Shown here piece after piece: positions 4,862 through 37,885 of a stretch of DNA of 40,855 bases. Where the stretch lies: positions 1 through 40,855 of the forward strand of contig CAISUK010000251.1 in the NCBI GenBank assembly GCA_903888645.1, given 5' to 3'. The notes beneath the pieces are model-generated. The model saw only the letters and a list, made by a program, of their open reading frames with translations, searched no databases and had not been told where the DNA came from. The stretch is from an uncultured Pseudomonadota bacterium. Lineage in GTDB: Bacteria; Pseudomonadota; Gammaproteobacteria; Burkholderiales; Rhodocyclaceae. A program made the position numbers and the translations under genes. The number at the start of each line of letters is the position of its first letter. The first letter of the stretch is position 1.

Positions 4862-4871
4862 GTGAGGATGG

Positions 4872-5117
4872 CTATTCCTGCTGGCCCTGCCTCAAGGCGA
4901 GATAGTCAATCGCTGCCCCAGCAAGCAACCCGGCGAACGACAGGACAATGGCAGCATTGCCATAGAAGCTATCCTTGAATTCGCTGCCGCCAAGCGCCCA
5001 CGCTACAAGAACGCAGGTGATCGTCAGTCCGCACAGTGCCATCAGTGAAGAACCAGAAAAGAAGAGTGCGTCGCTCTTCGCCAGTTGGAACTCATTTGCG
5101 TCCATTGTCTTGGTCAT
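4872..5117 (-). CDS. Small two-helix membrane protein, unknown function
   Basis: An 81-aa protein with two clear hydrophobic segments, roughly residues 22-42 (SSLMALCGLTITCVLVAWAL) and 54-74 (AAIVLSFAGLLAGAAIDYLAL), with a charged N-terminus and a polar tail. A strong Shine-Dalgarno GAGGAGA lies a few bases upstream; the ATG at 5117 fits the spacing better than the GTG directly before it. No family recognised. It is divergent from the riboswitch-protease unit and shares a ~200-bp AT-rich intergenic region with it. Confidence 0.6.
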   Translation of the reverse strand: MTKTMDANEFQLAKSDALFFSGSSLMALCGLTITCVLVAWALGGSEFKDSFYGNAAIVLSFAGLLAGAAIDYLALRQGQQE

Positions 5118-5283
5118 CACGGTCTCCTCTTGGGTTATTTTGCGAAAAGTACCCAGAACCTCTTTTTAGTCCATTTTTTCAATAAGGGAAATTTTCTGTG
5201 CACGACGACTGACTGCCCGCTTACATTCCTTTTTCCCTATCCATTCGCTAATACCCTCTTCGCAAAAGTAGGGAAAATACCCA

Positions 5284-5313
5284 TTGTCGGGTTTCTTCAT
5301 CTTGATTTACGAT
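5284..5313 (+). promoter_or_regulatory. Candidate sigma-70 promoter for the riboswitch-protease transcript
   Basis: TTGTCG (5284-5289), an 18-bp spacer and TACGAT (5308-5313) put a transcription start near 5320, a few bases before the first base of the riboswitch P1 stem. Its placement supports the call more than its modest match to consensus. Confidence 0.4.
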
Positions 5314-5322
5314 GGCTTCAGA

Positions 5323-5401
5323 TTTGGCAAACCCGTCGAAAGTCGGGGGCGCAAAGCTGCGGGGCTAAGGAGCAAAACTCTAAGCCAGCCGGGCTGCCGA
5401 A
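5323..5401 (+). ncRNA. Cyclic-di-GMP-I (GEMM-I) riboswitch aptamer
   Basis: The stretch has the whole GEMM-I layout in order. P1 is TTTGGCA (5323-5329) with TGCCGAA (5395-5401). The conserved GGCAAACC follows, then a stem closed by a GAAA tetraloop (CCCGTCGAAAGTCGGG), the near-invariant CGCAAAGC (5350-5357), a P3 stem with CTAAG receptor-like segments, and the closing AGCCGGGCTGCC. The base corresponding to G20 of the Vc2 aptamer appears to be G, which favours c-di-GMP over the cGAMP-type variants. The base before CGCAAAGC is G (5349), where the family normally has A (A47 in Vc2). It lies about 70 nt upstream of a surface-protease start codon. Confidence 0.88.
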
Positions 5402-5420
5402 ACGTCGCAATGACGTTTCG
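5398..5420 (+). promoter_or_regulatory. Hairpin competing with riboswitch P1 (expression platform)
   Basis: CGAAACGTC (5398-5406) pairs perfectly with GACGTTTCG (5412-5420) around a 5-nt loop. The first four bases (5398-5401) are also the 3' end of P1, so the full stem and full P1 cannot coexist. No U-run follows, so control is more likely through mRNA access, Rho or a further refolding than by intrinsic termination. Confidence 0.55.
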
Positions 5421-5472
5421 TCACCGACCACCAAGCTTCGCATCCCGACTCCGGCAGATACTGGAGGTCGCG

Positions 5473-7764
5473 ATGTTGAAGTTTTCCACAAAAGTTTCCC
5501 TGGCTGCCCTGGCGGTATCGTCGGCCTTGACCAGCCTGAGCGCCGCGGCTGCCGCACCCGTGCTGGCCCCTTGGCTGGTGCAGATGGGCGAGACATCTAC
5601 GATCCTTTCTGCTGCAAATTGGGGGCGCGGCCAGTTGCTCGGCGTCATCGACAGCGGCATCGTCGCCAGCAATCCCGTGTTTGCGCCCGGGCAAGTTTCC
5701 GCCGCGCTGAGTTCCTGCGCCGCTGCCTCGTTCAATTGTTCCAGTGGGGTGACTGACGACAATGGTCACGGTACCGCAGTCGCCTCCATCGCCGCGGCCA
5801 ACCGTGTGACTACCGGGACGTACAGCTATTCAGGCTATACGGTGGCCGCCAACAGCTACATCGGCGTGGCGCCCAACGCCAACATCATCGCCGGAAAAGT
5901 CCTCAACGCCAGTGGTTCCGGCTACAACACCGACGTCTCCAACGGCATCAACAAAGCAGTGGCGACCGGTGTCAGCGTGATCAATCTGTCGCTCACCTAT
6001 ATGGCCACGCCGGACATCGTCGCGGCGGTCAACAACGCTGCCGCCAAGGGTGTGTTCATTGTCTGGGCCGGTGGTAACGACGGTAAGGCGTTGCTGGCCA
6101 ACGCCAATACCAATGGGCTGACGAAGGTCGCCATCAACCACCTGATTTTCGCCGGTGCTCTCGATACCACAGCTGCCAAGGCGGCGTCGTTCAGCAGCAA
6201 CGCCGGCACCGGCCTCCTGCTCGATGCAGGCGGCGGCAAGACATCCTATGCGTCACGCTGGATTTCAGCACCCGGGGTCAATATTCTGGCGCCGGGGATC
6301 AGCTACGGCCCGAACGCAATGGCGCTTTGGTCGGGCACGTCGATGTCAGCGCCGCTCATCAGCGGTTCCTTGATCCTGCTTGAGTCTGCCTGGCCGATCC
6401 TCAAGACTAATGGCACTGCCGCCAACCTATTGCTGGCTTCGGCGACCGATCTAGGCGCCACCGGTGTCGATTCCATCTACGGCACGGGGAAGGTCAATCT
6501 GACCACCGCCTTCAAACCTTATGGCGCGTTGTCCGTAACCCAAGCCAATGGCAAGAGCACGCCGATCACGAGCCTCAGCGGCGCGATGATCAGCAGTGGC
6601 GCCTTGGGTAGCCTAGCCGCGGTCAAGGCAAAACTCGCCAGCTATACCGCGCTCGATACCTATTCGCGCAACTTCACGGTGAACCTCTCCGGCCTGATTC
6701 TGACCAAGCCGACCGCGGCGAGCGTCAATCCGCTGCCCTCCAATGTCAACTCCGGAGTCGTCGTCATGAAATTGCATGACGGTAGTGAATTGTCCAGTTG
6801 GCAAGCGCCCCGTACCTATATGACTGACCGCCTTGGCGTATTCGGCAACAGCGATGGCAATGCGTCCAAAGCGCCGCTCTACATGGCACTGACCAATCGG
6901 GACGGAAACACGATGGCCATGGGCTATGGCATGTCCAGCCAGCTCTCCCTAACCAAGGCCCTCTATGCGGATAGCAATTTTTCATCGATGGCCAGCGAAC
7001 TCGGTACGTCGAATCTTTCCGGCCTGGCACAAGGCGGCTTCCATTTGGCCTACGGCATGAAGATCGCCGACGACACACGCCTTGCCGTAGCAATGCACTG
7101 GACCCCGGCGAGCAGCTACGGCAGCAACCCAAGCTGGGATCAAGCGAGTATTTCATCCGATGCGACCAACCTGACCTTGGGTTTGACAACCAAGTTGAGC
7201 GATGCGTTGACAGGTGGTGTTTCTGTAGGCCAGCTACATGAAGGTTGTGGCGTCCTGGGTGCCAATTACGATGCGAACTCGCCGCTGAGTCTGGGCGCCA
7301 ACCGGAGTACCAGTCTTGGTCTTTCCCTCGGCTACGCTCTCAATGCGAATACCAGCTTGCTTGCCGAAGTGGGATTTGCGGTCACCGGCGGAAGCCAGGG
7401 CAACAGCCTGCTCGCCGGCACCACCAGCATCCAGTCGCGCTCTTATGGCGTGTCTGTGCTGTCGAAGCACCTCATGAACACTGACGACCAATTGGCGATA
7501 TCGCTCAAGCAACCGCTCCGCGTTGTTTCGGGTAGCGTCGGCATCGTTATGCCGAGCATCGACGCAGCCGGCGTCGCCAACTACTCGACCGAGATGGTCA
7601 GCCTGGTGCCGACCGGCAGGGAAGTGGATTTCAAGATGACTTATCACGCCCCACTCAAGAAGAACCAGTCCCTGAGCCTGCAATTCGCCGCGCGAAAAGA
7701 CACGATGAATATAGCCGGCAATCATGATGCAAGCGTCGGGGCAATCTGGACAACACGTTTTTGA
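5473..7764 (+). CDS. Secreted S8 (subtilisin-like) serine protease with autotransporter-like C-terminus
   Basis: A 763-aa protein. The ATG at 5473 is chosen because CTGGAGG lies 6-12 bp upstream and a classic signal peptide follows (MLKFSTKV..., cleavage near residue 28 after AAAA). The catalytic triad is Asp60 (GVIDSG), His99 (NGHGTAVA) and Ser290 (SGTSMSAP), with the oxyanion Asn202 (AGGNDG). Residues ~330-530 look like a linker or passenger. From ~530 to the end the sequence alternates Gly/Ser/aromatic strands and ends in TTRF with a terminal Phe, as in outer-membrane beta-barrels, so a type V autotransporter-type surface protease is inferred. It is the only gene downstream of the c-di-GMP riboswitch, which suggests a role in the attached/motile switch, for example cleaving a surface protein. 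Substrate unknown. Confidence 0.85.
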   Translation: MLKFSTKVSLAALAVSSALTSLSAAAAAPVLAPWLVQMGETSTILSAANWGRGQLLGVIDSGIVASNPVFAPGQVSAALSSCAAASFNCSSGVTDDNGHGTAVASIAAANRVTTGTYSYSGYTVAANSYIGVAPNANIIAGKVLNASGSGYNTDVSNGINKAVATGVSVINLSLTYMATPDIVAAVNNAAAKGVFIVWAGGNDGKALLANANTNGLTKVAINHLIFAGALDTTAAKAASFSSNAGTGLLLDAGGGKTSYASRWISAPGVNILAPGISYGPNAMALWSGTSMSAPLISGSLILLESAWPILKTNGTAANLLLASATDLGATGVDSIYGTGKVNLTTAFKPYGALSVTQANGKSTPITSLSGAMISSGALGSLAAVKAKLASYTALDTYSRNFTVNLSGLILTKPTAASVNPLPSNVNSGVVVMKLHDGSELSSWQAPRTYMTDRLGVFGNSDGNASKAPLYMALTNRDGNTMAMGYGMSSQLSLTKALYADSNFSSMASELGTSNLSGLAQGGFHLAYGMKIADDTRLAVAMHWTPASSYGSNPSWDQASISSDATNLTLGLTTKLSDALTGGVSVGQLHEGCGVLGANYDANSPLSLGANRSTSLGLSLGYALNANTSLLAEVGFAVTGGSQGNSLLAGTTSIQSRSYGVSVLSKHLMNTDDQLAISLKQPLRVVSGSVGIVMPSIDAAGVANYSTEMVSLVPTGREVDFKMTYHAPLKKNQSLSLQFAARKDTMNIAGNHDASVGAIWTTRF

Positions 7765-7778
7765 CAGCTTGAAGGATT

Positions 7779-7808
7779 GCTGACCCGTGGCTTGGCTGCC
7801 GGGTCAGC
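7779..7808. terminator. Hairpin between convergent protease and purT genes
   Basis: GCTGACCCG (7779-7787) pairs perfectly with CGGGTCAGC (7800-7808), a 9-bp stem with a 12-nt loop. It overlaps the purT stop codon and lies 15 bp after the protease stop, so it could serve both strands. There is no marked U-tract. Confidence 0.5.
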
Positions 7809-9003
7809 CCTTCACCGGTCGCACCAGACTGGCGGCTAGCTTGGCACGGGAGCGCGCTTCATCGGTGCTGTCGGCGTTGGCGACGGCGACGCCCATGCGG
7901 CGCTTGACGAAGCTTTCCGGCTTGCCGAACAGGCGCAGATCGGATTCGGGTACAGCCAGGGCTTCGGCGACACCTTCAAAGGCAATGCCTTTCTCCGCCA
8001 GCCCGCCGTAGATGACCGCCGACGCACCTGGTCGCCGCAACGCCACATCGACCGGCAGCCCCAGGATGGCGCGGGCATGCAATTCGAATTCCGACAGCCG
8101 TTGCGTGCATAGCGTGACCAATCCCGTGTCATGGGGGCGCGGACTCACCTCGGAAAACCAGACCATGTCGCCCTTGATGAACAACTCGACGCCGAAGATG
8201 CCTCGACCGCCCAGATTGCCGGTGATGGCCTTGGCGATTTGCCGGGACTTCTCCAGCGCCATCGCCGTCATCGCCATCGGCTGCCAGGATTCGACATAAT
8301 CGCCATTGATCTGGACGTGTCCGATCGGTTCGCAGAAATAGGTTTCGACCGCGCCGCCGGGACCGATGGCGCGCACCGTCAATTGGGTAATCTCGTAATC
8401 GAAGTCGATGAATCCCTCAACGATGACGCGACCCAGACCGACACGACCGCCGCTGGCGGCGTAATCCCAGGCCTTCTGCACATCGGCGGGTTTCTTCACC
8501 AGTGACTGACCCTTGCCCGAAGATGACATGACCGGTTTCACGACGCAGGGATAACCGATGCCAGCGTCGATGGCGGTCTGGAGCTCGGCCAGCGAGTCGG
8601 CAAACTGGTAGGGCGAAGTCGGCAAGCCGAGTTCTTCCGCAGCAAGGCGACGGATGCCTTCGCGGTTCATCGTCAGCCGCGTGGCACGCGCCACGGGGAT
8701 GACTTCGGCAAGCCCTTCGCGTTCAATTTCGACCAGCATGTCGGTAGCGATGGCCTCGATTTCCGGCACCACCAGATGCGGCTTTTCCAGTTCGATCAAG
8801 GCGCGCAGTGCGCCGCCATCGGTCATGGTGACCACGTGGCTACGGTGCGCCACCTGCATGCCAGGCGCATCGGCATAGCGATCGACCGCGATAACTTCGC
8901 AACCTAGTCGCTGCAAGGCGATGATCACTTCCTTGCCGAGTTCGCCGCTGCCGAGCAACATGACGCGGGTCGCCGATGGCGACAGAGGGGTACCGATTTT
9001 CAT
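7804..9003 (-). CDS. purT: Formate-dependent phosphoribosylglycinamide formyltransferase (GAR transformylase 2)
   Basis: A 399-aa ATP-grasp enzyme of normal length that makes formyl-GAR from GAR, formate and ATP in purine synthesis. The N-terminal Rossmann-like domain begins with [19 protein letters not shown] (residues 15-33) and [18 protein letters not shown]. The ATP-grasp loop is at [12 protein letters not shown] (about 156-167), and metal/ATP residues occur in GIFGVELFI and [11 protein letters not shown]. The family signature segments appear intact. It stands alone, convergent with the protease and divergent from the copper operon. Confidence 0.96.
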
Positions 9004-9070
9004 GATGACCTCGCTGAGCGCTAAATCGTGATTTTAGCCGAGGCGGATAGCGATTCAGTATCGAAGCGAC

Positions 9071-9087
9071 GCAGCGGCCCCCGCTGC
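9071..9087. repeat. GC-rich inverted repeat in the purT/copper divergent region
   Basis: GCAGCGG (9071-9077), CCC, then CCGCTGC (9081-9087): a perfect 7-bp palindrome immediately upstream of the candidate -35 of the copper operon, where an operator would be expected. It does not resemble the usual CueR or CusR site. Confidence 0.35.
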
Positions 9088-9093
9088 TGAAGC

Positions 9094-9122
9094 TTTTCAG
9101 GAGATGAATTCCCGCCTACAAT
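9094..9122 (+). promoter_or_regulatory. Candidate promoter of the copper-efflux operon
   Basis: TTTTCA (9094-9099), a 17-bp spacer, TACAAT (9117-9122). The implied transcription start is within a few bases of the ATG at 9132, and no Shine-Dalgarno is present between them. Confidence 0.4.
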
Positions 9123-9131
9123 AAGTCCGTC

Positions 9132-9521
9132 ATGTCGCTACTGTTCAAGAAATCCTTCCTGCTGCTGTTTGTCATACTGCTGCCGCTGCAGGGCGTTGCC
9201 GCGCCGTTCATGGCACTGGCACATTCTGGCGAAACGCTTCCGACCCACGAGCAAATGATGGGTAGCAGAGAGTCAACTGCAGCTATGCCTCACTGCCACA
9301 ACCAGCCGACGGCAGCGGATGGCACTGCTGCGCACCAGGACCACGCCAAGCTGAATTGCCACGAGAACAGTCCGTGTTGCCATATCGCTGCCTTGCCGGC
9401 GACGGTTGCTGTCATCGATGCTGCCCGCGCTGGAGGGCAGGTGATCCCTTCCATCCGCCAGGCATACGCCGACTTTCTTCCTGAGCAGCCGCAACGGCCG
9501 CCCAGACTCGCGCCGCTCTGA
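9132..9521 (+). CDS. Secreted Cys/His-rich protein heading the copper operon
   Basis: A 129-aa protein with an N-terminal signal peptide (KKSFLLLFVILLPLQGVAAP, cleavage near residue 23-24). The mature part is rich in potential metal ligands: HEQMMG, MPHCHNQ, HQDHAKLNCHENSPCCHIA. The last ~35 residues are Pro/Arg-rich. It resembles the small DUF2946-like proteins often found at the front of Cu/Ag efflux operons, but a family assignment is not secure. A periplasmic copper-binding role is inferred from composition and from the cusF-cusA neighbours. The start is fixed by the signal peptide. Confidence 0.65.
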   Translation: MSLLFKKSFLLLFVILLPLQGVAAPFMALAHSGETLPTHEQMMGSRESTAAMPHCHNQPTAADGTAAHQDHAKLNCHENSPCCHIAALPATVAVIDAARAGGQVIPSIRQAYADFLPEQPQRPPRLAPL

Positions 9522-9523
9522 TT

Positions 9524-9540
9524 CCGCGCCGCCGGCGCGG
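9524..9540 (+). repeat. Hairpin between the Cys/His-rich gene and cusF
   Basis: CCGCGCC (9524-9530), GCC, GGCGCGG (9534-9540): a 7-bp stem 2 bp after the stop codon. Without a U-run it may be an mRNA-stabilising or attenuating structure. The remaining ~150 bp to cusF show no gene; a Shine-Dalgarno AGGAAGGA stands before the cusF ATG. Confidence 0.4.
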
Positions 9541-9692
9541 ACGGCGGAGTTGATTCGTCACCCATCGTTCCGAGGCCCGTCAAGGGCATCGACCCGGCGC
9601 ATCCTCTTAAGCTCGTAACGGCTCCCTGCCACTGACAAGCCATTGTCATTTCCGGGGCGCGAACTGCAATTGCGCATCAGGAAGGAAAAGTC

Positions 9693-10031
9693 ATGTTCAA
9701 GCGTTCAGTCATGCTCGCCGTGGTTCTCGCCGGCGTGTCTTTGTCGTTCACTGCCAGCGCCGCCGAAAGCGTCGTGACGAATAAGCCCGTAGCACCCGCA
9801 GCAGATATACAGGGCAAGGGTATCGTCAAAAAGATCGACAGCGCAGCCGGTAACGTCAACATCGCCCATGAGGCTATCGCCGCCCTGCAATGGCCAGCGA
9901 TGACAATGGATTTCAAGGTGAGTGACCGAAAACTGCTTGCCAATCTCCAGGCTGGCCAGAGCATCGTCTTCGTGTTGGGCAAGGATCCGGTGGTTGGTTA
10001 CGTCATCACTCGCATCGAGCCGGTGAAATGA
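9693..10031 (+). CDS. cusF: Periplasmic Cu(I)/Ag(I) metallochaperone CusF
   Basis: A 112-aa protein with a signal peptide (MFKRSVMLAVVLAGVSLSFTASA) and one CusF beta-barrel domain (PF11604). The metal-binding residues are spaced exactly as in E. coli CusF: His, Trp at +8, Met at +11 and Met at +13, in HEAIAALQWPAMTM. In the family the Trp makes a cation-pi contact with Cu(I)/Ag(I). It hands metal to CusB for export. Its stop overlaps the cusC start by 4 bp (ATGA). Confidence 0.92.
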   Translation: MFKRSVMLAVVLAGVSLSFTASAAESVVTNKPVAPAADIQGKGIVKKIDSAAGNVNIAHEAIAALQWPAMTMDFKVSDRKLLANLQAGQSIVFVLGKDPVVGYVITRIEPVK

Positions 10032-11317
10032 AGACCGCGACGCTGGGGAGCCGCTGCCGCGCCGGCGCTCTCGCGATATTGCTCATGTCCACCGCTATCA
10101 CGGCCATGGCGGAGATTGAAACGCCACCCGGCGCCACGGCGGAAAGTCTGCTCGACTATGCCCGACAGCATAATCCCGACTATGCGGCGATGCGTTTCGA
10201 CGCAACAGCCGCCGGCGAGCGTATCGGGCCGGCCGGCGCGCTGCCCGATCCGACCTTGCGTACCGAGTTGCAGAACATCAGCAACAGCGGCAGCGATGCC
10301 GGGCCGAATCTGTTGCCGGGGCGCATCGGCAGCACCAAGTACACGCTGATACAGCCGCTGCCCTGGTGGGGCAAGCGCGATCTGCGCCGCGAGGTCGCCG
10401 AGTCTGAGGCCAGCCAGGTCGGCGCCCGCGCCGAGGTGACGTGGGCTGACATTGCCTTGCGCATCAAGGCCGCCCACGCCCAGCATTACCAACTGACTCG
10501 CAACGAGCAGCTGGCGCAGGAAATCCTTGATCTGCTGACCGGCATCGAACGGATCGCGCAGACGCGTTACGGCGCCGGCCTGGTCCCGCAACAGGATGTA
10601 CTGAGGGCGCAGATCGAAGTCACGGCGCTGCGTAGTGACCTGATCATGCTCGAGACCGACCACCATCACCTGCAGGCGCGCATTAACACGCTGCTGCGCC
10701 GACCGATCAATGCATCCCTGATGCCGCCGCTGCGCTTGCGACCCTTGCCGCCGCCGGAAAGGCTCGATTTCGCAGCGTTGGAGCAGCGCTTGGAAGCGAA
10801 GAATCCGCAACTTTTCGCCGCCGGGGCCGGCATCGCCGCCGCGGAAAAGAACCGCGATCTGACCTACCGCGACCGCTATCCGGATTTTTCCCTCGGTATT
10901 GCACCCATCCAGCGCGGCAGCCGCATCGATGAATGGGAACTGATGCTTGAACTGAATATTCCGCTGCAGCAGGGATCGCGCCGCTCCCGCGAACGTGAAG
11001 CCGAAGCGCTGCTGGATGCGGCTCGCGCGCGTCGGGAAGCAGCGCAAACGCAACTGCTCGGTGAGTTGAGCGAGAGCCTCACCGGCATCGAAGCAGCGCT
11101 GCGCCTGCGCGACTTGGCCCAAGGACGGATGCTGCCCCAAGCGGAAATCAGTTATCGGGCGGCGCTTTCCGCCTATGAAAACGGTCGTGGCGATTTCACC
11201 ACACTGCTCGAAGCGCATCGGCAGATTCAGAAAGCCCGGCTCGACGCGGTGAAAGCGGAGACCGATGCGCAAGTGCGCCTTGCCGAAATCGAAAGGCTGC
11301 TCGGAGAAGACCTATGA
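10028..11317 (+). CDS. cusC: TolC-family outer-membrane efflux protein CusC-like
   Basis: A 429-aa protein with a signal peptide (cleavage near residue 29, AMA-EIETPP). Two OEP repeats follow, with the long-helix heptads of TolC channels; typical segments are YTLIQPLPWWGKRDLRREVAES and LELNIPLQQGSRRSREREAEALL. No lipobox is visible, unlike E. coli CusC. It overlaps cusF upstream and cusB downstream by 4 bp each. It is the outer-membrane duct of the tripartite Cu(I)/Ag(I) pump; the specificity is assigned from the operon. Confidence 0.9.
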   Translation: MKTATLGSRCRAGALAILLMSTAITAMAEIETPPGATAESLLDYARQHNPDYAAMRFDATAAGERIGPAGALPDPTLRTELQNISNSGSDAGPNLLPGRIGSTKYTLIQPLPWWGKRDLRREVAESEASQVGARAEVTWADIALRIKAAHAQHYQLTRNEQLAQEILDLLTGIERIAQTRYGAGLVPQQDVLRAQIEVTALRSDLIMLETDHHHLQARINTLLRRPINASLMPPLRLRPLPPPERLDFAALEQRLEAKNPQLFAAGAGIAAAEKNRDLTYRDRYPDFSLGIAPIQRGSRIDEWELMLELNIPLQQGSRRSREREAEALLDAARARREAAQTQLLGELSESLTGIEAALRLRDLAQGRMLPQAEISYRAALSAYENGRGDFTTLLEAHRQIQKARLDAVKAETDAQVRLAEIERLLGEDL

Positions 11318-12666
11318 ACACGACAACACGCTCTACCCTGCTTGCCATGGCGATTGCCGCGGCGCTTGGCGGTGGCTACTGGCTGGGCCGGGGACAAAAT
11401 CCCGGCGGTACCGAAGTCGCCAAAACCGAGGTTGCCAAGACAGCTTCTGCGCCAAGCGAACCCGCGGTCAAAACCGAACCCCGGATCCTCTATTACCGGA
11501 ATCCGATGGGTTTGCCGGATACTTCGCCGACGCCCAAAAAAGATTCCATGGGCATGGACTATATTCCGGTCTTCGCCGAAACCGGCATACCCGCAGCAGC
11601 AGTCCCAGGCGAAGTCAGCATTTCGCCGGTCAAGATTCAGAAGCTCGGCGTCAAGACTGAACCCGCTGCATTGGCGAGTGTCGACCGCGTGATTCGAGCC
11701 GTCGGCCGAATAGATGTTGACGAGCGGAGGACCTTTACCGTAGCGCCAAAGTTCGAGGGCTGGATCGAGCGCCTGCACGTCAATGCCACCGGCCAGCCGG
11801 TCGCCAAGGGACAGCCGCTGCTCGATGTTTACAGTCCCGAGCTGGTTTCGGCACAGCGCGAATATGCCATCGCCACTTCCGGTGTCGACACCTTGAAAAA
11901 TGCCGGCGGTGAAGCCCAGGCTGGCATGAAGCAGTTGTCCGAATCGAGCCTGACCCGGCTGAAGAATTGGGACATTTCCGACGAGCAAATCGCCAAGCTG
12001 CGCCAAGGCGGCGAATCACACCGAACCTTGACGCTGCGCTCGCCGGCGAATGGCATCGTCATGGAAAAGAAAGCGGTCCAGGGCATGCGCTTCATGCCCG
12101 GCGATGCGCTTTTCCAGATTGCCGATTTAGGATCGGTTTGGGTCGTCGCGGATATTTTCGAGCAGGACCTGGGGCAAGTCCGTGTCGGCCAGATAGCCGC
12201 CGTGAAAATCGACGCCTGGCCGGAGAAGGCTTTTTCAGCCCGCGTCGCGTACATCTATCCGACCGTCAATGCGCAGACGCGAACCACCTCGATCCGCCTG
12301 GAACTGGCCAATCCCAATGGCCTGCTGAAACCGGCGATGTTCGCCAGCATAGAACTGGCGGCAGACAAAGCGGGCAACGCCAGCCAAAGCAAGGTTGTCA
12401 CCGTGCCGACCTCGGCAGTGATTTTCGGCGGCACCCGAAATATCGTTCTCGTGCAACTCGGCGAAGGCCGTTTCGCGCCGCGCGAGATCAAGCTCGGTCG
12501 TCAGGGCGATAACCATGTGGAGGTTCTCAGCGGCATCGCCGAAGGCGAGCAGGTGGTGGTTTCCGCCAACTTTCTGATCGATTCGGAAAGCAACCTCAAG
12601 GCGGCCATCGCCGGTTTCGGCGAGGCCAAGCCGCAGCAGCCGGGCTCAGGGACCAAGGAAAGATAA
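11314..12666 (+). CDS. cusB: Efflux RND periplasmic adaptor CusB-like
   Basis: A 450-aa membrane-fusion protein. An N-terminal signal/anchor (STLLAMAIAAALGGGYWLG) is followed by a heavy-metal-binding domain around residues 58-86: YYRNPMGLPDTS, then KKDSMGMDYIPVF. The Met cluster is typical of CusB metal capture. Next come the barrel-sandwich (lipoyl-like) halves around GWIERLHVNATGQPVAKGQPL and LRSPANGIVMEKKAVQGM, and a beta-barrel with the membrane-proximal domain. It connects CusA to CusC and receives metal from CusF. Confidence 0.93.
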   Translation: MNTTTRSTLLAMAIAAALGGGYWLGRGQNPGGTEVAKTEVAKTASAPSEPAVKTEPRILYYRNPMGLPDTSPTPKKDSMGMDYIPVFAETGIPAAAVPGEVSISPVKIQKLGVKTEPAALASVDRVIRAVGRIDVDERRTFTVAPKFEGWIERLHVNATGQPVAKGQPLLDVYSPELVSAQREYAIATSGVDTLKNAGGEAQAGMKQLSESSLTRLKNWDISDEQIAKLRQGGESHRTLTLRSPANGIVMEKKAVQGMRFMPGDALFQIADLGSVWVVADIFEQDLGQVRVGQIAAVKIDAWPEKAFSARVAYIYPTVNAQTRTTSIRLELANPNGLLKPAMFASIELAADKAGNASQSKVVTVPTSAVIFGGTRNIVLVQLGEGRFAPREIKLGRQGDNHVEVLSGIAEGEQVVVSANFLIDSESNLKAAIAGFGEAKPQQPGSGTKER

Positions 12667-12670
12667 GGCC

Positions 12671-15600
12671 ATGCTCAAGCGCATCATCGAATGGTCGGCG
12701 AAGAATGCCTTCCTGGTTCTCCTTGCCACCTTGTTCATCGCCGCCGCCGGCGTCTGGGCGCTGCTCAAAACGCCACTCGACGCGCTGCCCGATCTCTCCG
12801 ACGTGCAGGTCATCCTCTACACGGAATCCCCCGGTCAGGCACCGCAAGTGGTCGAGGATCAGATCACCTATCCGCTGACGACGGCCATGCTGGCAGTGCC
12901 GAAAGCGCGCGTGGTGCGCGGCTTCTCGTTCTTCGGCGCTTCCTTTGTCTACATTATTTTCGAGGATGGTACCGACATTTACTGGGCCCGCTCGCGTGTC
13001 CTCGAATATCTCAATTTCGCCGCTGCGCGGCTGCCGCGCGGCGTGACGCCGACGCTCGGGCCGGATGCCACTGGCGTCGGCTGGGTGTACCAGTACGTCG
13101 TGCTCGGCGTCGACCGGACGCTTGCGGAATTGCGCACGCTGCAGGATTGGTATCTGCGCTACCAGCTGACCAAGGCGCCCGGCGTTGCCGAGGTCGCCTC
13201 CATGGGCGGCTTCGTCCAGCAATACCAAGTGGTGGTCGACCCGCGCCGCTTGCAGTCTTATGGCATTCCGTTGAACCGCGTGACGCAAGTGATCCGCGAC
13301 TCGAATCGCGACGTCGGCGGCCGCGTCGTCGAAATGGCCGAGACCGAATACATGGTGCGCGGCAAGGGCTACCTGCGCGGCAAGGCCGACCTCGAACAAC
13401 TGGTGATCAAGAGCGAGCGCGGTGTGCCGGTATTGCTGCGCGACATCGCCCGGATCGAAATCGGACCCGACGAGCGGCGCGGCGTCACCGAACTGAATGG
13501 CGAGGGCGAAGTGGTTTCCGGCATCGCCATGGCCCGCTACGGCCAGAACGCGCTGGAGGTGATCGACAACATCAAAACCAAGATCAATGAGGTCGCCGGC
13601 GGCCTGCCTAGTGGCGTCAGCATCGCTGCCGTTTATGACCGCTCCGAACTGATCCACCGCGCCATTGCCAACCTCAATCGCACGCTGCTCGAGGAAAGCG
13701 TCATCGTCGCTCTGGTCTGCATCGTCTTCCTGATGCACGTACGCAGCGCCTTGGTTGCGATTGTCATGCTCCCAGTCGGCATCCTGATGGCATTTCTGGC
13801 CATGCATGCGCTCGGCATCAACGCCAACATCATGAGCCTGGGCGGCATCGCCATCGCCATCGGCGCGATGGTCGATGCCGCCATCGTCATGATAGAGAAC
13901 ACCCACAAACATCTGGAGCGGATGCCGCCCGGCGGCTCGCGGAGCGCAGCGATCATTGCCGCTTGCCAGGAAGTCGGGCCGGCGCTGTTCTTCTCGCTGC
14001 TGATCATCACCGTCTCGTTTCTGCCGGTATTCACACTGGAAGCTCAGGAAGGTCGGCTGTTTTCGCCGCTCGCCTTCACCAAGACTTTTTCGATGGCTGC
14101 CGCCGCGCTGCTTTCGGTGACACTGGTGCCGGTGCTGATGCAATTATTCGTGCGCGGGCGGATCATGTCGGAGCAGCAGAACCCCTTGAACCGCCTGCTG
14201 ATCCGCATCTACCGGCCAGTGATCGCCAATGTCATGCGACACAAGAAAGCCACCATCGCCGCAGCCTTTGTCATGCTAATGCTGAGCCTCATTCCGGCGG
14301 CGCGGCTGGGCAGCGAATTCATGCCGACGTTGAACGAAGGTACTTTGTTCTATATGCCGACGGCGTTGCCGGGCATGTCCATCACCAAGGCGGCGGAACT
14401 GCTGCAGACGCAGAACCGCATCATCAAGGGCTTCCCGGAAGTTGCCTCGGTGTGGGGCAAGGCCGGCCGTGCCGCCACCGCCACCGATCCGGCGCCGACG
14501 GAAATGTTCGAGACCGTGATCAACCTCAAGCCGGAATCGGAGTGGCGTCCCGGCTTGACCATCGACGGCCTGATCACCGAACTGGACAAGGCGCTGCAAT
14601 TCCCCGGCGTCGCCAACGCCTGGACGATGCCGATCAAGGCGCGCATCGACATGCTGTCCACCGGCATCCGCACGCCGATCGGCATCAAGGTCTTCGGCAA
14701 GGATCTGGAGGGCATGGAACAACTCGCCCGACAAATCGAAGCGGTGGTAAAAACCGTGCCGGGCACCACCAGCGCTTATGCCGAACGCATTACGGGCGGC
14801 TATTACCTGAACATCGAACCGGATCGCGCCATGCTGGCCCGCTACGGGCTTGGCGTCGGCGAATTGCAGGACGTCATCGCCACTGCACTGGGCGGCGAAA
14901 CCGTGACGACCACGGTCGAAGGCCGCGAGCGCTTCGGCGTGGCGGTGCGCTATCCGCGCGAGCTACGCGCCGATCCGCAGATGATCGCCAGCCAGGTGCT
15001 GGTACCGATCAACGGCGAAATGTCAGGCCAGACGGCGATGGTACCGCTCGGTCAATTGGCCAAAGTCGAAGTGGCACGCGGCGCACCGTCGATTCGCACC
15101 GAAAACGCGCTGCTCTCGGCATACATCTACGTCGACATTCGCGGCCGCGACATCGGCGGCTACGTCGCCGAGGCGCAAAAAGCGGTGCGCGAACAGGTCA
15201 AGTTTCCTCCCGGTTATTACGCCACCTGGAGCGGCCAGTTCGAGTACATGGAACGCGCTTACGCCAAGATGAAGATCGTCGTGCCGCTGACCCTGGCGAT
15301 CATCTTCGTGCTGCTCTATCTCAATTTCCGCCGCCTCGCCGAGACCGTCATCGTCATGCTTTCGGTCCCGTTCGCGCTGGTTGGCGGCATCTGGCTGATG
15401 TGGGCGCTCGACTACAACCTGAGCGTCGCCGTCGCCGTCGGCTTCATCGCCCTGGCCGGGGTGGCGGCGGAAACCGGCGTGGTGATGCTGATCTACCTCG
15501 ACCACGCGCTGAACGAGCGCAAGGCCAGTCGCGCAGCCGCTGGCGAGGCGCTGCAGGCTAGCGATCTCCATGATGCGGTGATGGAAGGCGCAGTCGAACG

Positions 15601-15820
15601 GGTACGGCCGAAGATGATGACCGTGGTCGCCATCATGGCCGGCCTGCTGCCGATCATGTGGAGCCACGGCAGCGGTGCCGAGGTAATGAGCCGCATCGCC
15701 GCGCCGATGATCGGCGGGATGGTTTCGTCCACGATCCTGACGCTGGTGGTGATCCCGGCACTCTATGCGCTGGTCAAGGAGCGGGCCCTTGCGGCGGTGC
15801 CGGTAGAGTCGTCCCTATGA
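12671..15820 (+). CDS. cusA: Cu(I)/Ag(I) efflux RND transporter CusA (HME family)
   Basis: A 1049-aa inner-membrane pump with the standard RND architecture: TM1 near residues 14-33, a first large periplasmic loop, TM2-6 (about 340-500), a second loop, and TM8-12 (about 870-1030). Features of the heavy-metal RND subfamily are [15 protein letters not shown] after TM1, [26 protein letters not shown] in TM4 with the proton-relay Asp, and the second-loop [26 protein letters not shown] containing Met ligands. It begins 4 bp after cusB. No cusRS regulators are visible in the window. Large open frames on the opposite strand are shadows of this gene. Confidence 0.95.
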   Translation: [1049 protein letters not shown]

Positions 15821-16000
15821 CTTAAGGTATCCGCCAACGTATGACCATATATTTCGCACAAGAAGTAACAGGAAACCTTGCCACTTTTTAACTTAGATCA
15901 GTAAAGGTCAGATTTAAAGTACCCACGATGCGGGAAATGGAGTTATCCTGCGCACGAAATATTTGGTCGGGCAATCACGACAGTCTGAGGGGAGGGAAAT

Positions 16001-32168: not shown

Positions 32169-32249
32169 ATCCGAAAAGCCTCGGAGACCGGCTCAGCTTG
32201 CCGGAAACACAAGCGTCCAACGCAAAGTGATTGTCGGTAGAGAATCGCA

Positions 32250-34382
32250 CTACACGCTGTCACTCGGGTTTTTCGAGCACAATTGCCCACCCGCTCGTTT
32301 GAGGCGAAACTTGGCTTTTGAAACGACTTGATTCCGCCAATCCTCATCCTTATCGGTGTCGGCACCGTTCTCGGATTCGATATCCCGCACTCCGCCCAGC
32401 AGCAGGGAAAAGCTGCCGATTCGCTTTTTCATGATCTGTACTACGCGATGGTCGCGCGTACCGCCAAACGCTGGGTACGCAACGAGAATCGGCTTACCGG
32501 TCACAGCCGCCCAGTTATTCAGCCGTCGCAACCTTCCATTGCGCTGCACTATGCGCATCGGGCTCGGGCCAAGCTCGTAGTGGATTAGGTGACGACAGTA
32601 ACGGTGCAGATCGATGCCTTCCGAGAGACGGTCGGTCGCGATCAGAACATCTGGTCCGAAAGGACTGTTGAAAATCGAGATCGCGGTATCTGGCTGTTGG
32701 TTATGGAGAAATAGTGCCTGCTCCAAGAGATTGTCGGTCGGCTTACGTTCGCAAATTCCCAGTACGCGCGAGGCGCTATTTCCGCTGGGTAGCCGTTCAA
32801 GATCTTCGCCGGGATCAAGCAAAATCCTGCTGCTCGAAGGGGACCCGATCAGCTTTTCGTAAAGCCGTTGCGCCGCCGCGGCGATTGTCTCAGGTCCATT
32901 GCCATGGCGCGGCCTAACCCGGTCCAGGGCATGGACAAGGTTCTTGGGCGCTTTTGCCGTCAGAGTTACCCACGCCCAAGTCTTGGTGCGGATCTGTTCG
33001 GAACAAAGCCAAGCAATGAAATTTATTCGCAAGCGAGCTTCGTTGCGAATCGGCTCCTTCACCGTGCCGATTTTCCGGATCAATTGTTCCCACGCTACTT
33101 GCCAGTCAGCCGCATCAGGCCCAACCTTTGACTGCGCCTCCGGCAATACAGAAGCGAGGTGCGCAGTCAGTTCCCGAGCGGTCGCATGATGGTGGCAAAA
33201 CAGGACAACCTTCTCGCCTTGCTCGACGACGCATCGGACTGCCTCACCAACGGCCACCATCTTGGTGTGGGCTCGGCCCTTGCCACGAAGCCGCCCGATT
33301 ACGCGAAGCTGGTGATCGACCACTGCCCGGGCAGGCTCAGGAAGCGTTTGCACTTCACTACGCAATTGCCCACGGACATCGTCGAAATGGCCCCAGCCAA
33401 CATGGAAGCGCGGGTCATTGGTGGCTCTTACCGCGTCCGCATTGTGATCCTTCGCTACACGCAAGGCGCGGTCGAAGCGCAGCATTAGCTCGATTTCCAT
33501 AGCGCTGGCCGACGGCACCGGGATGCACCAATCAGCGACGCTACCGAAAGCCGCGCGCTCGTTCGGCAAATCTTCGACGCCGTGACGGATGACAAACGCA
33601 CCGAGCGCGGCTGTGGCCGCCTCGGCTGTTTCGGCCAAGCGCTCGGCTACACCGTCAAGGTTCCGCGTCGTGCTGCCCGAATAGAGATTGTCCAGGGCGT
33701 TACTGAATTTCTTGACAGGAGCCGACGCGGATTGTCCGTCAATCATGGCCAGCATACGGGTTAGCTCCAACAGGTCGATGCTAAAGGGCGTGGCGGTCAG
33801 AATCAGCACCCGTCCAAAGTTTTTGCGGTTCTTGTGCAGATTTTGCGCAAAAACGCTACCTTCTCCCTTGGCACGATGCGCTTCATCGACGATCAGCAGA
33901 TCGCAGTCGAGCACCGAGTCAGTTGCGGCGTAGGAATGCTTAGCCACCTGGATCGTGCCGGCTGTAAGGCGGCGGACGCGGCCGGCCTTGACGCGGCGCG
34001 CGTCTGCTTCGAGTCGCGGAGCGCATTTGCGCAGTAATGGCACATGCGCACGTATTTCTTCCACCCAGCGCCGCGCCATCACATCGTTGGGCGCCAGGAT
34101 ACGCACGCGCTTGCCCGCGCAGGCCACAACCCAGGCCACCAGCGCCGCCACCGTGGTCTTGCCCAAACCCACATCGTCGGCCAACAGGATGCCATGCCTC
34201 GCCTCGATTCCATGGCTGCCGTTGAGTCGAGCCAGGATGTCACGCGCCGTCAGGAACTGCCGCCGCGTGCTCGCCAGTGCGAGATTGCCGCCACTATCCG
34301 AACTGGCCGCGACGTAGCGATCCGGCGCATTGAGAAACTGCCATTGATTGGCGTGCAGCCCGAGCGTTTCGACGGCAGTCAC
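32250..34382 (-). CDS. SNF2-like superfamily 2 helicase of a three-gene candidate defence operon
   Basis: A 710-aa protein starting at GTG in a 4-bp overlap with the Tdp1-like gene. Motif I is LLADDVGLGKTTVA (residues ~67-80), the SNF2-type D-x-GLGKT. Motif II is VDEAH (165-169) and motif III is LTATPF (195-200). The second RecA domain has VVLFCHHHATARELTAHL and, near the C-terminus, LIATDRLSEGIDLHRYCRHLIHYELG and a variant motif VI, QRNGRLRRLN. The middle (about 210-390) is a helical insertion. The C-terminal tail is charged. It most likely translocates on or remodels nucleic acid together with its two partners. No integrase or transposase is nearby. Confidence 0.82.
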   Translation of the reverse strand: MTAVETLGLHANQWQFLNAPDRYVAASSDSGGNLALASTRRQFLTARDILARLNGSHGIEARHGILLADDVGLGKTTVAALVAWVVACAGKRVRILAPNDVMARRWVEEIRAHVPLLRKCAPRLEADARRVKAGRVRRLTAGTIQVAKHSYAATDSVLDCDLLIVDEAHRAKGEGSVFAQNLHKNRKNFGRVLILTATPFSIDLLELTRMLAMIDGQSASAPVKKFSNALDNLYSGSTTRNLDGVAERLAETAEAATAALGAFVIRHGVEDLPNERAAFGSVADWCIPVPSASAMEIELMLRFDRALRVAKDHNADAVRATNDPRFHVGWGHFDDVRGQLRSEVQTLPEPARAVVDHQLRVIGRLRGKGRAHTKMVAVGEAVRCVVEQGEKVVLFCHHHATARELTAHLASVLPEAQSKVGPDAADWQVAWEQLIRKIGTVKEPIRNEARLRINFIAWLCSEQIRTKTWAWVTLTAKAPKNLVHALDRVRPRHGNGPETIAAAAQRLYEKLIGSPSSSRILLDPGEDLERLPSGNSASRVLGICERKPTDNLLEQALFLHNQQPDTAISIFNSPFGPDVLIATDRLSEGIDLHRYCRHLIHYELGPSPMRIVQRNGRLRRLNNWAAVTGKPILVAYPAFGGTRDHRVVQIMKKRIGSFSLLLGGVRDIESENGADTDKDEDWRNQVVSKAKFRLKRAGGQLCSKNPSDSV

Positions 34383-36349
34383 GCGTCCTCCGAAAAAAAC
34401 TTGAGCCGGATTGCGAGTTCCTCGGCCGCGAGTGTGGCACCGAGCGCGTTCACCTGTTTGGGGGCGCCTTCACGCTCGGCTTGTCGCTTGAATGCCTCAA
34501 TCAGCAATTCACCGTCGCGGCGCACTGCTTGTCGCTCGAACGCGCGCAACTCGCCCATCGCCGCGATGCGCATACGCGCCACCCAGTTGTCGACAACCTG
34601 CAAATGCTGGCGCGCCAGCACGAATGCGGCCACCGCATAGCTGTCGGGTTGACGATGTCGCCCTTCCCCGTTACCCGTTACAACTTTCCGTTCGTTTACG
34701 CTTTCCGCGTCCGAGTCCAAGTCATCCGCCGCCCGCCCACCATATGCTTCGAATAGAAGCTCATCCCGCATTGTCTGAACGGTATCCGGATCGACTCCGT
34801 CCGGGATAGAGGTTTCTCTTTCCCGTGACGGCCGGTCGTCGAAGATTGGAACGTTGAGCGTTTCCTTCCCACAGGCGAGCAGCACCGACATGGGCTGGCG
34901 GCCGGCATCTGTCCAAGGCAAGCGCATACGATAGAGGCTGCTTTCGGCATCGGGGCGCGGCCATTTGTCGATTGGCACATCAATGCCTCTACAGCAAATT
35001 TTGCCGCTCAATACTGCGCCGTTTGCGCACCGACAGGCTAACTCGACAACCTTGCCGTTCCACTTCGCGGTAGCCCACAGGATCATCGCCGTGAAGCGGT
35101 TCTGCTCCTCCACTGTGGTTGCGATTTCGCTCGTATCGACGAACGGTTCGAGTCGATCGAAAGGCCATTCCGCAAGGTCGACGCACACGCCGAGCTCGAA
35201 GTTGTCGATATCAAGCCCGCCGTTCGCTCGTGCGCGCCCCCAAGCCGCCACGCTGAAGTTGGCCGAAGTGAGCAACAGTCGGCGGGCGTTGCCGCGCCTC
35301 AAGAGATAAAGCTTGGCATGGTTCCAGCGCGGATCGGTCGACCGATGTTTCGCATGAAAATGATCGGTGTTGCGCTCATCGCCCAAGACATGGCGCAGGT
35401 TCAGCACGGTGGCCTTGGCATTGGTCAGCGTTCGCAAGCTTGCTTCCGGCAGCAGCCAAGAACGTGCCCACGGATGCTTCCAGTCGATCCAAATCAATTG
35501 CAGCCGGCGTGGCACACTTTCGAGGTTGGCACACCAGTGCTGCAGCGACTCCGAGTTCCATGTACCGACGTAGGGGCTTAGAATCGAGGCGCCAACGTTA
35601 CCCCGTCCCGGCGGGGCAATCCCGCGCAGGCCAGCCGCACCCCATGGTGTGCGGCGCAAGTCACTTGCTGAATGCTTGCCCGGCACGCTGGCAAGGAATG
35701 TCGCATTAGCTGGAGCTTCCGCGCGACCCAAGAGATCGAGGTATGCATCGAGGTTTGCCTCGTTACCCGTCGATGCCGCCAACGCACGAAGGAATTCTGG
35801 CAGCACGCCCCAGCCGGCGAGACGCGTCTTGCTAGGTTGGGGATATAGATCGAGACAAACTCGCCATGCTGCCTGGATTTGGCCCTTGAACGCCGATCGT
35901 GTCAGATTGGCGGACGACACCACGATTTCCAGGCGTTCGCTGACCTCGCCGTCTGCCGCTCCCCAGTACAGCAACCACAGTTTTGAGTGCTGCACAGCCT
36001 TGCTCTGACAGCCCACGGTCAGACGGCGAATCGAATGCCATATCCACTGATAAGCTAAGCTTTCCAGACTCTGCTCATCGCGAACGGTCGACGACACCAC
36101 CGTCACCTGCCCATGCATCTGCTTGAGACGGGCGTCGAGTTCGAGCCAGAAATACTGCACTTCCCTGCCATCTCCCTGTGGCTCATGTTCGAGCTTCAGC
36201 AGCATGGGCAGCAAGTGTTCGACCAGCATCCGCTCGTCGGAATGCTCATAGCTTGTCAATAGCGCCGCCTTGAGCCTGGCGCCCGAAGGCGCGTCGGAAT
36301 TTAGCAGGGATTCCCAGCCCAATTCTCCCTTACTCGCGCCCTTACTCAT
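34379..36349 (-). CDS. Tdp1-like (tyrosyl-DNA phosphodiesterase family, PLD superfamily) protein
   Basis: A 656-aa protein. The ATG at 36349 has GAGG upstream and overlaps the preceding stop (ATGAGTAA). Two PLD-type half-sites lack the usual Asp and have the H-x-K...N form of Tdp1: HSKLWLLYW with VVSSANLT (H121, K123, N148), and HAKLYLLRRG with LLTSANFS (H344, K346, N364). After the second, SVAAWGRARANGG and NFELGVCVD closely follow the eukaryotic Tdp1 pattern SKAAWGxxxxNG...YELGVL. A C-terminal ~200-residue extension is acidic and then helical. Tdp1 cleaves 3'-phosphotyrosyl and other 3' DNA adducts; a DNA-end-processing or nuclease role is inferred here. It is the middle gene of a tightly packed operon with a helicase. 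Confidence 0.75.
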   Translation of the reverse strand: MSKGASKGELGWESLLNSDAPSGARLKAALLTSYEHSDERMLVEHLLPMLLKLEHEPQGDGREVQYFWLELDARLKQMHGQVTVVSSTVRDEQSLESLAYQWIWHSIRRLTVGCQSKAVQHSKLWLLYWGAADGEVSERLEIVVSSANLTRSAFKGQIQAAWRVCLDLYPQPSKTRLAGWGVLPEFLRALAASTGNEANLDAYLDLLGRAEAPANATFLASVPGKHSASDLRRTPWGAAGLRGIAPPGRGNVGASILSPYVGTWNSESLQHWCANLESVPRRLQLIWIDWKHPWARSWLLPEASLRTLTNAKATVLNLRHVLGDERNTDHFHAKHRSTDPRWNHAKLYLLRRGNARRLLLTSANFSVAAWGRARANGGLDIDNFELGVCVDLAEWPFDRLEPFVDTSEIATTVEEQNRFTAMILWATAKWNGKVVELACRCANGAVLSGKICCRGIDVPIDKWPRPDAESSLYRMRLPWTDAGRQPMSVLLACGKETLNVPIFDDRPSRERETSIPDGVDPDTVQTMRDELLFEAYGGRAADDLDSDAESVNERKVVTGNGEGRHRQPDSYAVAAFVLARQHLQVVDNWVARMRIAAMGELRAFERQAVRRDGELLIEAFKRQAEREGAPKQVNALGATLAAEELAIRLKFFSEDA

Positions 36350-37748
36350 TGTCATCCTCGTCCGCGCCCGCTTCTTCGTCGTCGGCACGCGCGTCGTCGA
36401 GCAGGGCGCGGGGCATTCTGCCGACGACTCCGCACTGAACGGCAAGTCGACAGAGCGACCAAAGGCGAAAACCGTAGCGCGAAGAATTACGACTACCTTG
36501 TAGCGAGCGCGCTTCGACGCGACCGTCGAGCAAGCTAAACCAGCGCAGTCCGCCTCCGCAAATCTGATGATGTTCGATCAAGGCGCCCAGGCATTTCACC
36601 GGCGCGGGATCGCGCATGGCGCCGGCAAGGCGGCTCGCGCTGCCCACATGCCGAATATCGGGTGAATCGGTTTTCTCCCAAGCCTGCGCGGCATCGAATA
36701 ATTCGCGGCACACAGGTTTCACCCTCGGATGCCGAGCAATATCGGCAAGCGCAACATCCGGACTGCCTCCCAAAACCTTTGCGACAAGATCCATCGCCTC
36801 CATGCCCGCATCCGCCAAGCGCGAAAAGCGCGGCAATGCGGCGATGACTGGGTCGTCGGCAAACACGTCCGCCAAGTACTCACAGATCCCGATGTGGGTA
36901 GGTGCCTTCGCCGTAACCAGCGCTCTCGCCACCGCCTTTCGTCTAGCTCCGCGTGGGTCTTCGCCAAACACAAGCGGCACGAGCAAGGATGCCTCGGGTA
37001 GTTTGGCGAACTCGTTACGCGGGCGGGGTAATGTCTTGCCATCGGCTTGACGACCGCCCTCGCTGAAGTTTGGCCATTGCTTCAGCCACCATTGGTCTTC
37101 TTTGCTTCGCGCGCGCTTGGCAGAAACCGAGAGATCGATGTCGCCGTTATCTTGCAAGCGCCAGGCAGGGCGTGCTTCCTTGAGAAAGCTGTCGAGCCAT
37201 TGCGCCAAGTGCTGCGCCGCCGGGCCTAGTGTCCAGCCGTCGCCGAGCAACGTCATGCCTGGCCACTTACGGAACGCGAGTCGGTATCCACCATACATTC
37301 CCGTTTGCCGATAAGCGCGGAACTGGGCATCGCTCATGCCAAACCGGTTGGGTTTCATTCCGTGGTCGATGTACCAAGGCCTGACTCGACGTATGCCGTT
37401 AAGCGAGCGCCTTGACCAATCATCAGGAACCAACGCGACGGTTCTCGCAACCCACATTAGTTCGAGCGGACGCAACCAGTCATAGCGGCGGCGCTGGTCG
37501 ATCCGCGTCTCGAGCGAGCGGCCGCCACTGGCATCAAAGGCTTCTTGCGAACGCGCCAAGCACCAGGCGAGAATCGTTACCCAGCGCCCGTCGCGTATCC
37601 GGTTGCTCAGGTCGGGAGCAACGGCCTCGGCGAACTGGTCGGTAAGCGCTCGCAGACCGAGCGCATCACCACGCCTAACGACAACGGGATCCCACGGCGC
37701 CGTGAAGAGCAACCGGGGAAGGCGGCCGACATCGATTTCGATAGGCAT
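36342..37748 (-). CDS. Unrecognised first gene of the helicase/Tdp1-like operon
   Basis: A 468-aa protein if started at the ATG at 37748 (MPIEIDVGRLPRLLF); an ATG at 37781 would add 11 residues, but it overlaps the likely -10 TATTAT, and neither start has a good RBS. The sequence is rich in Trp and Arg. An N-terminal part, APWDPVVVRRGDALGLRALTDQFAEAVAPDLSNRIRDGRWVTILAWCL, is faintly reminiscent of DUF6361-type proteins. A middle part, FRAYRQTGMYGGYR, is followed by many helices. The tail is very acidic (DDARADDEEAGADEDDNE). I cannot assign a fold or activity. Its stop overlaps the Tdp1-like start by 8 bp, so the two are translated together. Confidence 0.7.
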   Translation of the reverse strand: MPIEIDVGRLPRLLFTAPWDPVVVRRGDALGLRALTDQFAEAVAPDLSNRIRDGRWVTILAWCLARSQEAFDASGGRSLETRIDQRRRYDWLRPLELMWVARTVALVPDDWSRRSLNGIRRVRPWYIDHGMKPNRFGMSDAQFRAYRQTGMYGGYRLAFRKWPGMTLLGDGWTLGPAAQHLAQWLDSFLKEARPAWRLQDNGDIDLSVSAKRARSKEDQWWLKQWPNFSEGGRQADGKTLPRPRNEFAKLPEASLLVPLVFGEDPRGARRKAVARALVTAKAPTHIGICEYLADVFADDPVIAALPRFSRLADAGMEAMDLVAKVLGGSPDVALADIARHPRVKPVCRELFDAAQAWEKTDSPDIRHVGSASRLAGAMRDPAPVKCLGALIEHHQICGGGLRWFSLLDGRVEARSLQGSRNSSRYGFRLWSLCRLAVQCGVVGRMPRALLDDARADDEEAGADEDDNE

Positions 37749-37830
37749 GGTGGTTAGCAATGCACCAGAATATCCATCCATAATAGACGATTCGAATAAA
37801 ATGCAACTGGCACGCCAAAGCCACTTCACC

Positions 37831-37847
37831 CCGCAAACCCTTTGCGG
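37831..37847. repeat. Inverted repeat in the divergent region before trpB2
   Basis: CCGCAAA (37831-37837), CCC, TTTGCGG (37841-37847): a perfect 7-bp palindrome between the minus-strand candidate defence operon and the + strand trpB2 gene. It may be an operator or a 5'-leader hairpin of trpB2. On the minus strand TATTAT near 37780 is a plausible -10 for the operon. Confidence 0.4.
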
Positions 37848-37885
37848 TACCTTATCGACTTTTCATCAACGGCCCTGCACTCAAA

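Follow-up and report, generated by a model that had tools for sequence, protein, structure and literature searches.

Introduction

A layout in which a first protein (position A), a phospholipase D (PLD) superfamily nuclease (position B) and an SNF2 helicase (position C) are encoded in this order is already known, as judged from sequence, from the Azaca system (ZacABC) and from the PADLOC candidate system PDC-M27. ZacC is the helicase of Azaca according to the excerpt consulted of PMC12278908, and an excerpt of PMC10952713 lists a PLD domain for both Mokosh and Azaca and cites a 2022 paper by Millman for Azaca. Our literature search returned no publication on DUF6361, none under ZacABC and, among the papers listed, nothing related under ZacA, ZacB or ZacC. 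Here, we describe an operon of this layout in a 40,855-nucleotide contig of an uncultured Rhodocyclaceae bacterium (GenBank assembly GCA_903888645.1, contig CAISUK010000251.1). The window, as we call the stretch analysed, is that entire contig (C251 of genome G000, which comprises 727 contigs and is 85.55% complete).

We favour, with some reserve, the reading that this three-gene operon was acquired horizontally and acts, in the manner of Azaca, against invading DNA; it probably represents an uncommon branch of a type of anti-virus defence that is already known. Among the grounds for this reading are that the same cassette occurs in two phyla and is absent from the same site in three relatives; its defence part draws on the operon class and on the neighbours of other members of that class rather than on this locus. 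An earlier note on this DNA had proposed an undescribed defence or DNA-repair system, of which the self-contained three-gene operon stands and the novelty of the layout does not, because Azaca and PDC-M27 share it.

Architecture of the operon

Open-reading-frame calls confirmed three minus-strand genes encoding proteins of 468 (A), 656 (B) and 710 (C) amino acids, in agreement with the earlier description of three long genes joined by start-stop overlaps of 8 and 4 bp. The features of the locus, in window coordinates, are as follows.

32169..37885, no strand: insert between coaX and trpB that contains the cassette (coaX–trpB gap of ~80–160 bp in three relatives)
36342..37748, minus strand: gene A, the operon's first gene; ATG start, frame open back to 37829, 468 amino acids
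36342..36349, minus strand: A/B stop-start overlap, 8 bp, ATGAGTAA; same length in the Planctomycetota relative L002
34379..36349, minus strand: gene B, predicted Tdp1-type PLD-superfamily phosphodiesterase; ATG within the A/B overlap, open frame extending upstream to 36445, 656 amino acids
35873..35989, minus strand: first catalytic block of B (H121, K123, N148, Q159); coordinates derived from the 36349 start
35195..35320, minus strand: second catalytic block of B (H344, K346, N364, E385; SANFSVAAWG...FELGV); coordinates derived from the 36349 start
34379..34382, minus strand: B/C stop-start overlap, 4 bp, GTGA; same length in L002
32250..34382, minus strand: gene C, SNF2-family helicase/translocase; GTG start, 710 amino acids
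34155..34187, minus strand: Walker A motif of C, LLADDVGLGKT, by motif reading
33876..33896, minus strand: DEAH motif of C, LIVDEAH, by motif reading
32523..32549, minus strand: motif VI of C, VQRNGRLRR, by motif reading

Protein C, read earlier as an SNF2-like helicase, is one by its matches to SNF2-rel_dom (PF00176, E = 3.3e-15) and Helicase_C (PF00271, E = 1.2e-6) and by its motifs, with Walker A, DEAH, TATP and QRNGRLRR all intact. The description of protein B as a Tdp1-like double H-x-K protein was likewise borne out: it matches Tyr-DNA_phospho (PF06087) at 2.8e-18 and 66.5 bits, above the curated cut-off of 22, and its best match in the PDB by phmmer is Tdp1 (1jy1, E = 0.0046), in an alignment that spans both halves of the protein. 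Tdp1, a tyrosyl-DNA phosphodiesterase, is the enzyme with which human cells release DNA from proteins stuck to it. Two HxK-N motifs (H121-K123-N148 and H344-K346-N364) are present, as they are, with similar spacing, in each of the B proteins examined. In the window family, a Gln lies 11 residues past the first Asn and an AAWG...FELGV block follows the second Asn, both aligned onto Tdp1; the Gln is found in window B and L002 B, and the other 12 B proteins have Asp (5), Glu (3), Leu (2), Val or Asn at this position. With Q159 and E385 added to the two H-K-N sets, B carries all of the Tdp1 catalytic positions. B differs from Tdp1 in being operon-linked to a helicase and in having ~250 extra C-terminal residues beyond the second motif. 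In a PF06087 scan, the only match among 299 Pseudomonadota genomes was in the genome of the window; 3 of 236 Planctomycetota genomes and none of 14 control genomes matched. Two of the three Planctomycetota matches are the A-B pairs of loci L057 and L058, with lower scores. No publication joining tyrosyl-DNA phosphodiesterase, anti-phage and helicase was found in our literature search.

Protein A has the acidic C-terminal tail for which it had been singled out as unrecognised, and searches of PADLOC, Pfam and NCBIfam returned nothing for it at E ≤ 1; that label no longer fits its N-terminal part, which leave-family-out profiles link to ZacA, although window A itself only weakly (below).

Comparison with Azaca and other systems

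A PADLOC search, which the earlier note had named as a way to recognise a known system, gave ZacC (1.4e-23) as the nearest profile for C, ZacB (9.8e-9) for B and none for A. The operon resembles Azaca in its order of small first protein, two-HxK PLD protein and superfamily 2 helicase, in these top-ranking profiles and in the ZacA-type N-terminal stretch of A. It differs in that neither PADLOC nor Pfam matches A to the ZacA/DUF6361 profile at E ≤ 1, which argues against membership of Azaca, in the Tdp1 type of its B, in the length of its helicase (710 amino acids vs ~1,000 for the ZacC profile) and in the separate tree branch of B and C. The ZacB match of B covers the profile in part and reaches 32.6 bits, compared with 555 bits for a genuine ZacB. 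A DUF6361 search of 299 genomes, in which L033 was a weak match, did not recover window A. Because the ZacA profile did not match, we do not file the operon as Azaca.

PDC-M27 has the same three-part layout at locus L061, and M27C is the second-best PADLOC profile for C (9.1e-21), but no M27 profile matches B or A at E ≤ 1 and a relationship between window A and M27A was not recovered by leave-family-out profiles. Protein C is poorly discriminating in such comparisons, with ZacC, M27C, DrmD and DpdE scoring nearly alike across PADLOC and NCBIfam.

As previously supposed, the operon does not fit DISARM, and the profile matches examined do not point to Mokosh either. Its helicase is related to DrmD and DpdE and its PLD protein is weakly DrmC-like, but the NCBIfam cut-offs are missed by C (DpdE, its best, 89.5 bits against 500; DrmD, 86.7 against 610) and by B (DrmC, its best, 26.6 against 133). 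In further contrast to DISARM, no DUF1998 partner or methylase was found among the ten flanking proteins scanned, and, unlike in Dpd, no 7-deazaguanine genes lie beside the cassette. A helicase plus a PLD domain is shared with Mokosh, going by the excerpt of PMC10952713, but no Mokosh profile matched B and none matched C among the matches listed (25 of 37).

Two small trees, one built from 12 C and the other from 14 B sequences, with long branches and no outgroup, split off the window branch in both cases with 100% support and left its sister group unplaced. Window B and C branch outside the sampled Azaca sequences. In the tree of B, the ZacB of L005 groups with L016 B, apart from the other ZacB proteins, so that ZacB itself is not cleanly resolved.

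Relatives and acquisition of the cassette

A pattern scan with A over a collection of one genome per species (84,980 species), which finds close relatives only, returned a single relative, L002, in a metagenome-assembled genome of Planctomycetota. L002 encodes A, B and C in the order of the window, joined by overlaps that again measure 8 and 4 bp, which bears out, in another phylum, the expectation that the three genes travel together. Amino acid identity with the window is 53% for A, 59% for C and ~54–57% for B, the last measured in pieces since a frameshift splits L002 B in the assembly. Agreement at the first, second and third codon positions is 66/70/43% for A, 68/75/36% for C and 72/76/44% for B (first 171 codons); third positions agree far less than first and second ones, which indicates selection on the protein. 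Direct repeats of 300 bp (7348–7647 and 13526–13825, 99% identical), derived from the 3′ end of a GH57-like gene, lie on either side of the L002 cassette; they are either a scar of its insertion or an artefact of the assembly.

The third relative is a 74-amino-acid A remnant in L014, 36% identical over its length and located directly upstream of a different, complete A-B-C operon. At E ≤ 0.01, the A profile matched 4 of the 369 genomes of the class, namely the window's own, that of the remnant and two weak ones (L012 and L013, ~0.005), and 2 of 246 Planctomycetota genomes, namely that of L002 and genome G777, whose match (3.1e-4, two stops) was rejected on reading its region.

The cassette lies between glnA, a histidine kinase gene, a sigma-54 regulator gene, birA and coaX on one side and trpB (named by sequence alone), a SPOR protein gene and coaE on the other. 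Of the 26 genomes in the relatives set, 25, among them that of the window, encode CoaX, and coaX neighbourhoods were compared at 14 loci, one of them the window. At the 13 others, trpB adjoins coaX in three, the SPOR gene adjoins coaX with no trpB between in three, and A, B or C was found in the 1.5-kb flanks of coaX in none. In three relatives of the same family, birA-coaX-trpB-SPOR-coaE is contiguous, with coaX–trpB gaps of ~80, 120 and 160 bp vs 5.7 kb here. Since this array is unbroken in the three relatives, the cassette is an acquired insertion between coaX and trpB. The insert contains no integrase or transposase, and no tRNA and no target duplication were seen at it; direct repeats around it look like chance and were discarded.

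The N-terminal stretch of protein A

The N-terminal stretch compared spans about residues 25–65 of A (GDALGLRALTDQFAEAVAPDLSNRIRDGRWVTILAWCL in window A; RDELGMGSVRDFISDQLFPGTSTIQTRLRYMLFVPWIL in ZacA). Profiles of this stretch were scored against sequence sets with decoys, leaving one family out per run. A profile of 16 A-position proteins without the window family placed that family at ranks 1–3 of 8,793 (remnant L014f_A, 3e-12; L002 A, 4.2e-4; window A, 0.11; best decoy, 0.48). When ZacA was left out, all three ZacA proteins took ranks 1–3 (6.2e-6 to 0.032), and when the long A proteins were left out, they took ranks 2–4 with one shuffled decoy above them. With a profile of ZacA only, the remnant joined the three long A proteins in the top four of 5,648 sequences (2.5e-5 to 0.0023, the last being the remnant); L002 A, at 0.94, ranked under a decoy, and the matches listed (best 14) did not include window A. 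Lower E-values in other A profile tests arise because their training sets combined A groups.

These results support a shared N-terminal domain of ~60 residues, of DUF6361/ZacA type, in the window A family and ZacA, mainly via the remnant. The putative ZacA-type relationship is limited to the N-terminal stretch of the window family and is not extended to the rest of A or to other A groups. No significant score came from thin profile-profile comparisons, whether of A with ZacA, L015 A and L014 A2 or of ZacA with L015 A, and AlphaFold2 models from three-row alignments (mean pLDDT, the predicted local distance difference test, of 33.8 for A5, window A, and 42.1 for A3, ZacA) were too poor for fold comparison.

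The wider set of A/PLD/SNF2 operons

A ZacB search of 249 genomes found some match at 1e-3 in 37 and a match over most of the profile in three (L003–L005), each with DUF6361 ZacA, ZacB and helicase in window order. Among 200 genomes, one had PDC-M27 (L061), as an A-position protein, a PLD protein and an SNF2 protein in the same order. The layout recurs in L014, L015 and seven plasmid records (L019–L025), in one of which (L024) the PLD frame is interrupted by a transposase-like open reading frame, and L016, L057 and L058 have A and B with no adjoining helicase of the SNF2 kind. In L025 (8974–11988), a single uninterrupted frame of 1004 amino acids covers both A and B, which suggests that the two work together.

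In the five plasmid records with gene tables, the operon neighbours include BREX pglZ and brxL (one record), PD-(D/E)XK and UvrD genes (three), WYL regulators (four), ADP-ribosylglycohydrolases (two) and recombinases or integrases (three). Homologues near defence genes, expected by the earlier note, were therefore found for related A-B-C operons, which adjoin BREX, WYL and nuclease-helicase genes, and not for the window copy. The unrecognised operon is now tied to this wider set, which includes Azaca and PDC-M27, and a conserved N-terminal stretch is pointed out in the uncharacterised ZacA-type protein.

Proposed function and alternatives

Since the parts and their order are the same, an Azaca-like mechanism is our best guess. 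Protein A would recognise the target or assemble the complex, C would load onto double-stranded DNA and pump along it, and B, carried along with C, would hydrolyse DNA phosphodiesters by way of a covalent phosphohistidine and would act as a nuclease or clear blocked 3′ ends. The earlier proposal that topoisomerase-blocked DNA is processed may hold, and the catalytic residues of B fit it. The unusual part of the operon is a Tdp1-type enzyme that is bacterial and bound to an operon. Action of B on protein-blocked 3′ ends, if it occurs, would suggest a trigger for a class of defence whose mechanism is undescribed in the excerpts consulted.

Several results weigh against an acquired, Azaca-like defence system. 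No defence gene adjoins this copy among the ten flanking proteins scanned, and with housekeeping genes on both sides the defence-island setting that the earlier note asked about is not supported for it. Two complete copies and one remnant are known in all, and the window branch of A, B and C had no match (C at E ≤ 1e-10) in 72,556 plasmids or in 50,697 phage records, nor in viral contigs. Outside PADLOC, C scores highest with DpdE and B with DrmC, in each case far under cut-off. Window A by itself reaches E = 0.11 only, even at rank 3, and profiles built without the A2 group, L015 A or M27A fail to recover them; homology of every A-position protein is therefore not claimed, and the A-position proteins of the whole operon class may not be one family.

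The alternative that survives best, which we nevertheless hold to be unlikely, is a DNA-repair module in which C remodels protein-DNA complexes and B, a bacterial Tdp1, frees 3′ ends from covalent tyrosine enzymes or other adducts. Window B is nearer to Tdp1 than the ZacB tested (PF06087 at 2.8e-18 vs no match for L004 ZacB), it has Gln at the Tdp1 Gln position together with the SAN..AAWG..ELGV block, and the locus lies among housekeeping genes. However, vertical retention would be expected of a repair gene, whereas the distribution is very patchy: relatives lack the cassette at this site, and only one of 299 Pseudomonadota genomes matched PF06087. The layout is also that of defence operons.

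A long shot that joins both ideas is a bacterial Tdp1 used in immunity: the SNF2 motor would patrol DNA and stall at covalent protein-DNA adducts of invaders, and the Tdp1-type subunit would hydrolyse the adduct or the adjoining strand, leaving integration or replication of the invader unfinished. If true, the adducts would be the 3′-phosphotyrosyl intermediates that tyrosine recombinases or type IB topoisomerases form, and what is sensed would be blocked DNA ends, not sequence or base modification.

Less probable again is a bona fide divergent Azaca, with orthologues of ZacA, ZacB and ZacC that current profiles miss. The shared order and parts, the PADLOC ranking and the ZacA-type N-terminus would fit, but the missing ZacA/DUF6361 match, the Tdp1 type of B, the separate long branch of B and C (in small trees) and the short helicase do not. 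Cargo of mobile elements with an anti-plasmid or transfer-related role, not anti-phage defence, is very improbable: the cassette was acquired, A2-type relatives lie on plasmids (4 of 7 predicted conjugative) and the L057 A-B pair has capsid-like and recombinase-like genes nearby (by eye), but the window insert lacks an integrase or transposase and its branch was not found in the plasmid, phage and viral collections searched.

Neighbourhoods of related operons

At L057, the A-B pair adjoins capsid/prohead-protease-like and serine-recombinase-like genes (3980–7965 and 8621–14001, by eye) and may therefore be carried on a phage-like element. Beside the A-B-C operon of L015, positions 9501–15998 encode an Hsp70/actin-like protein with a weak PDC-M61B match (5.1e-6), a 1033-amino-acid SNF2 helicase and a helicase-like protein, which may make up another defence system. 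RecB/Cas4-like nuclease-like proteins that resemble one another lie near A-B genes or restriction loci in L014 (8103–8843), L050 (6129–7619) and L058 (12032–13543), as judged by eye. Genes for an ADP-ribosylglycohydrolase and a WYL regulator recur beside A-B-C in L021 and L022 (annotated) and in L061 (by eye). In three alphaproteobacterial plasmids (L020, L021 and L022, at ~3.2–14.7 kb of each locus), genes for a PD-(D/E)XK nuclease and a UvrD helicase directly precede A-B-C, and the start-stop overlaps or close spacing of these genes point to a possible five-gene island.

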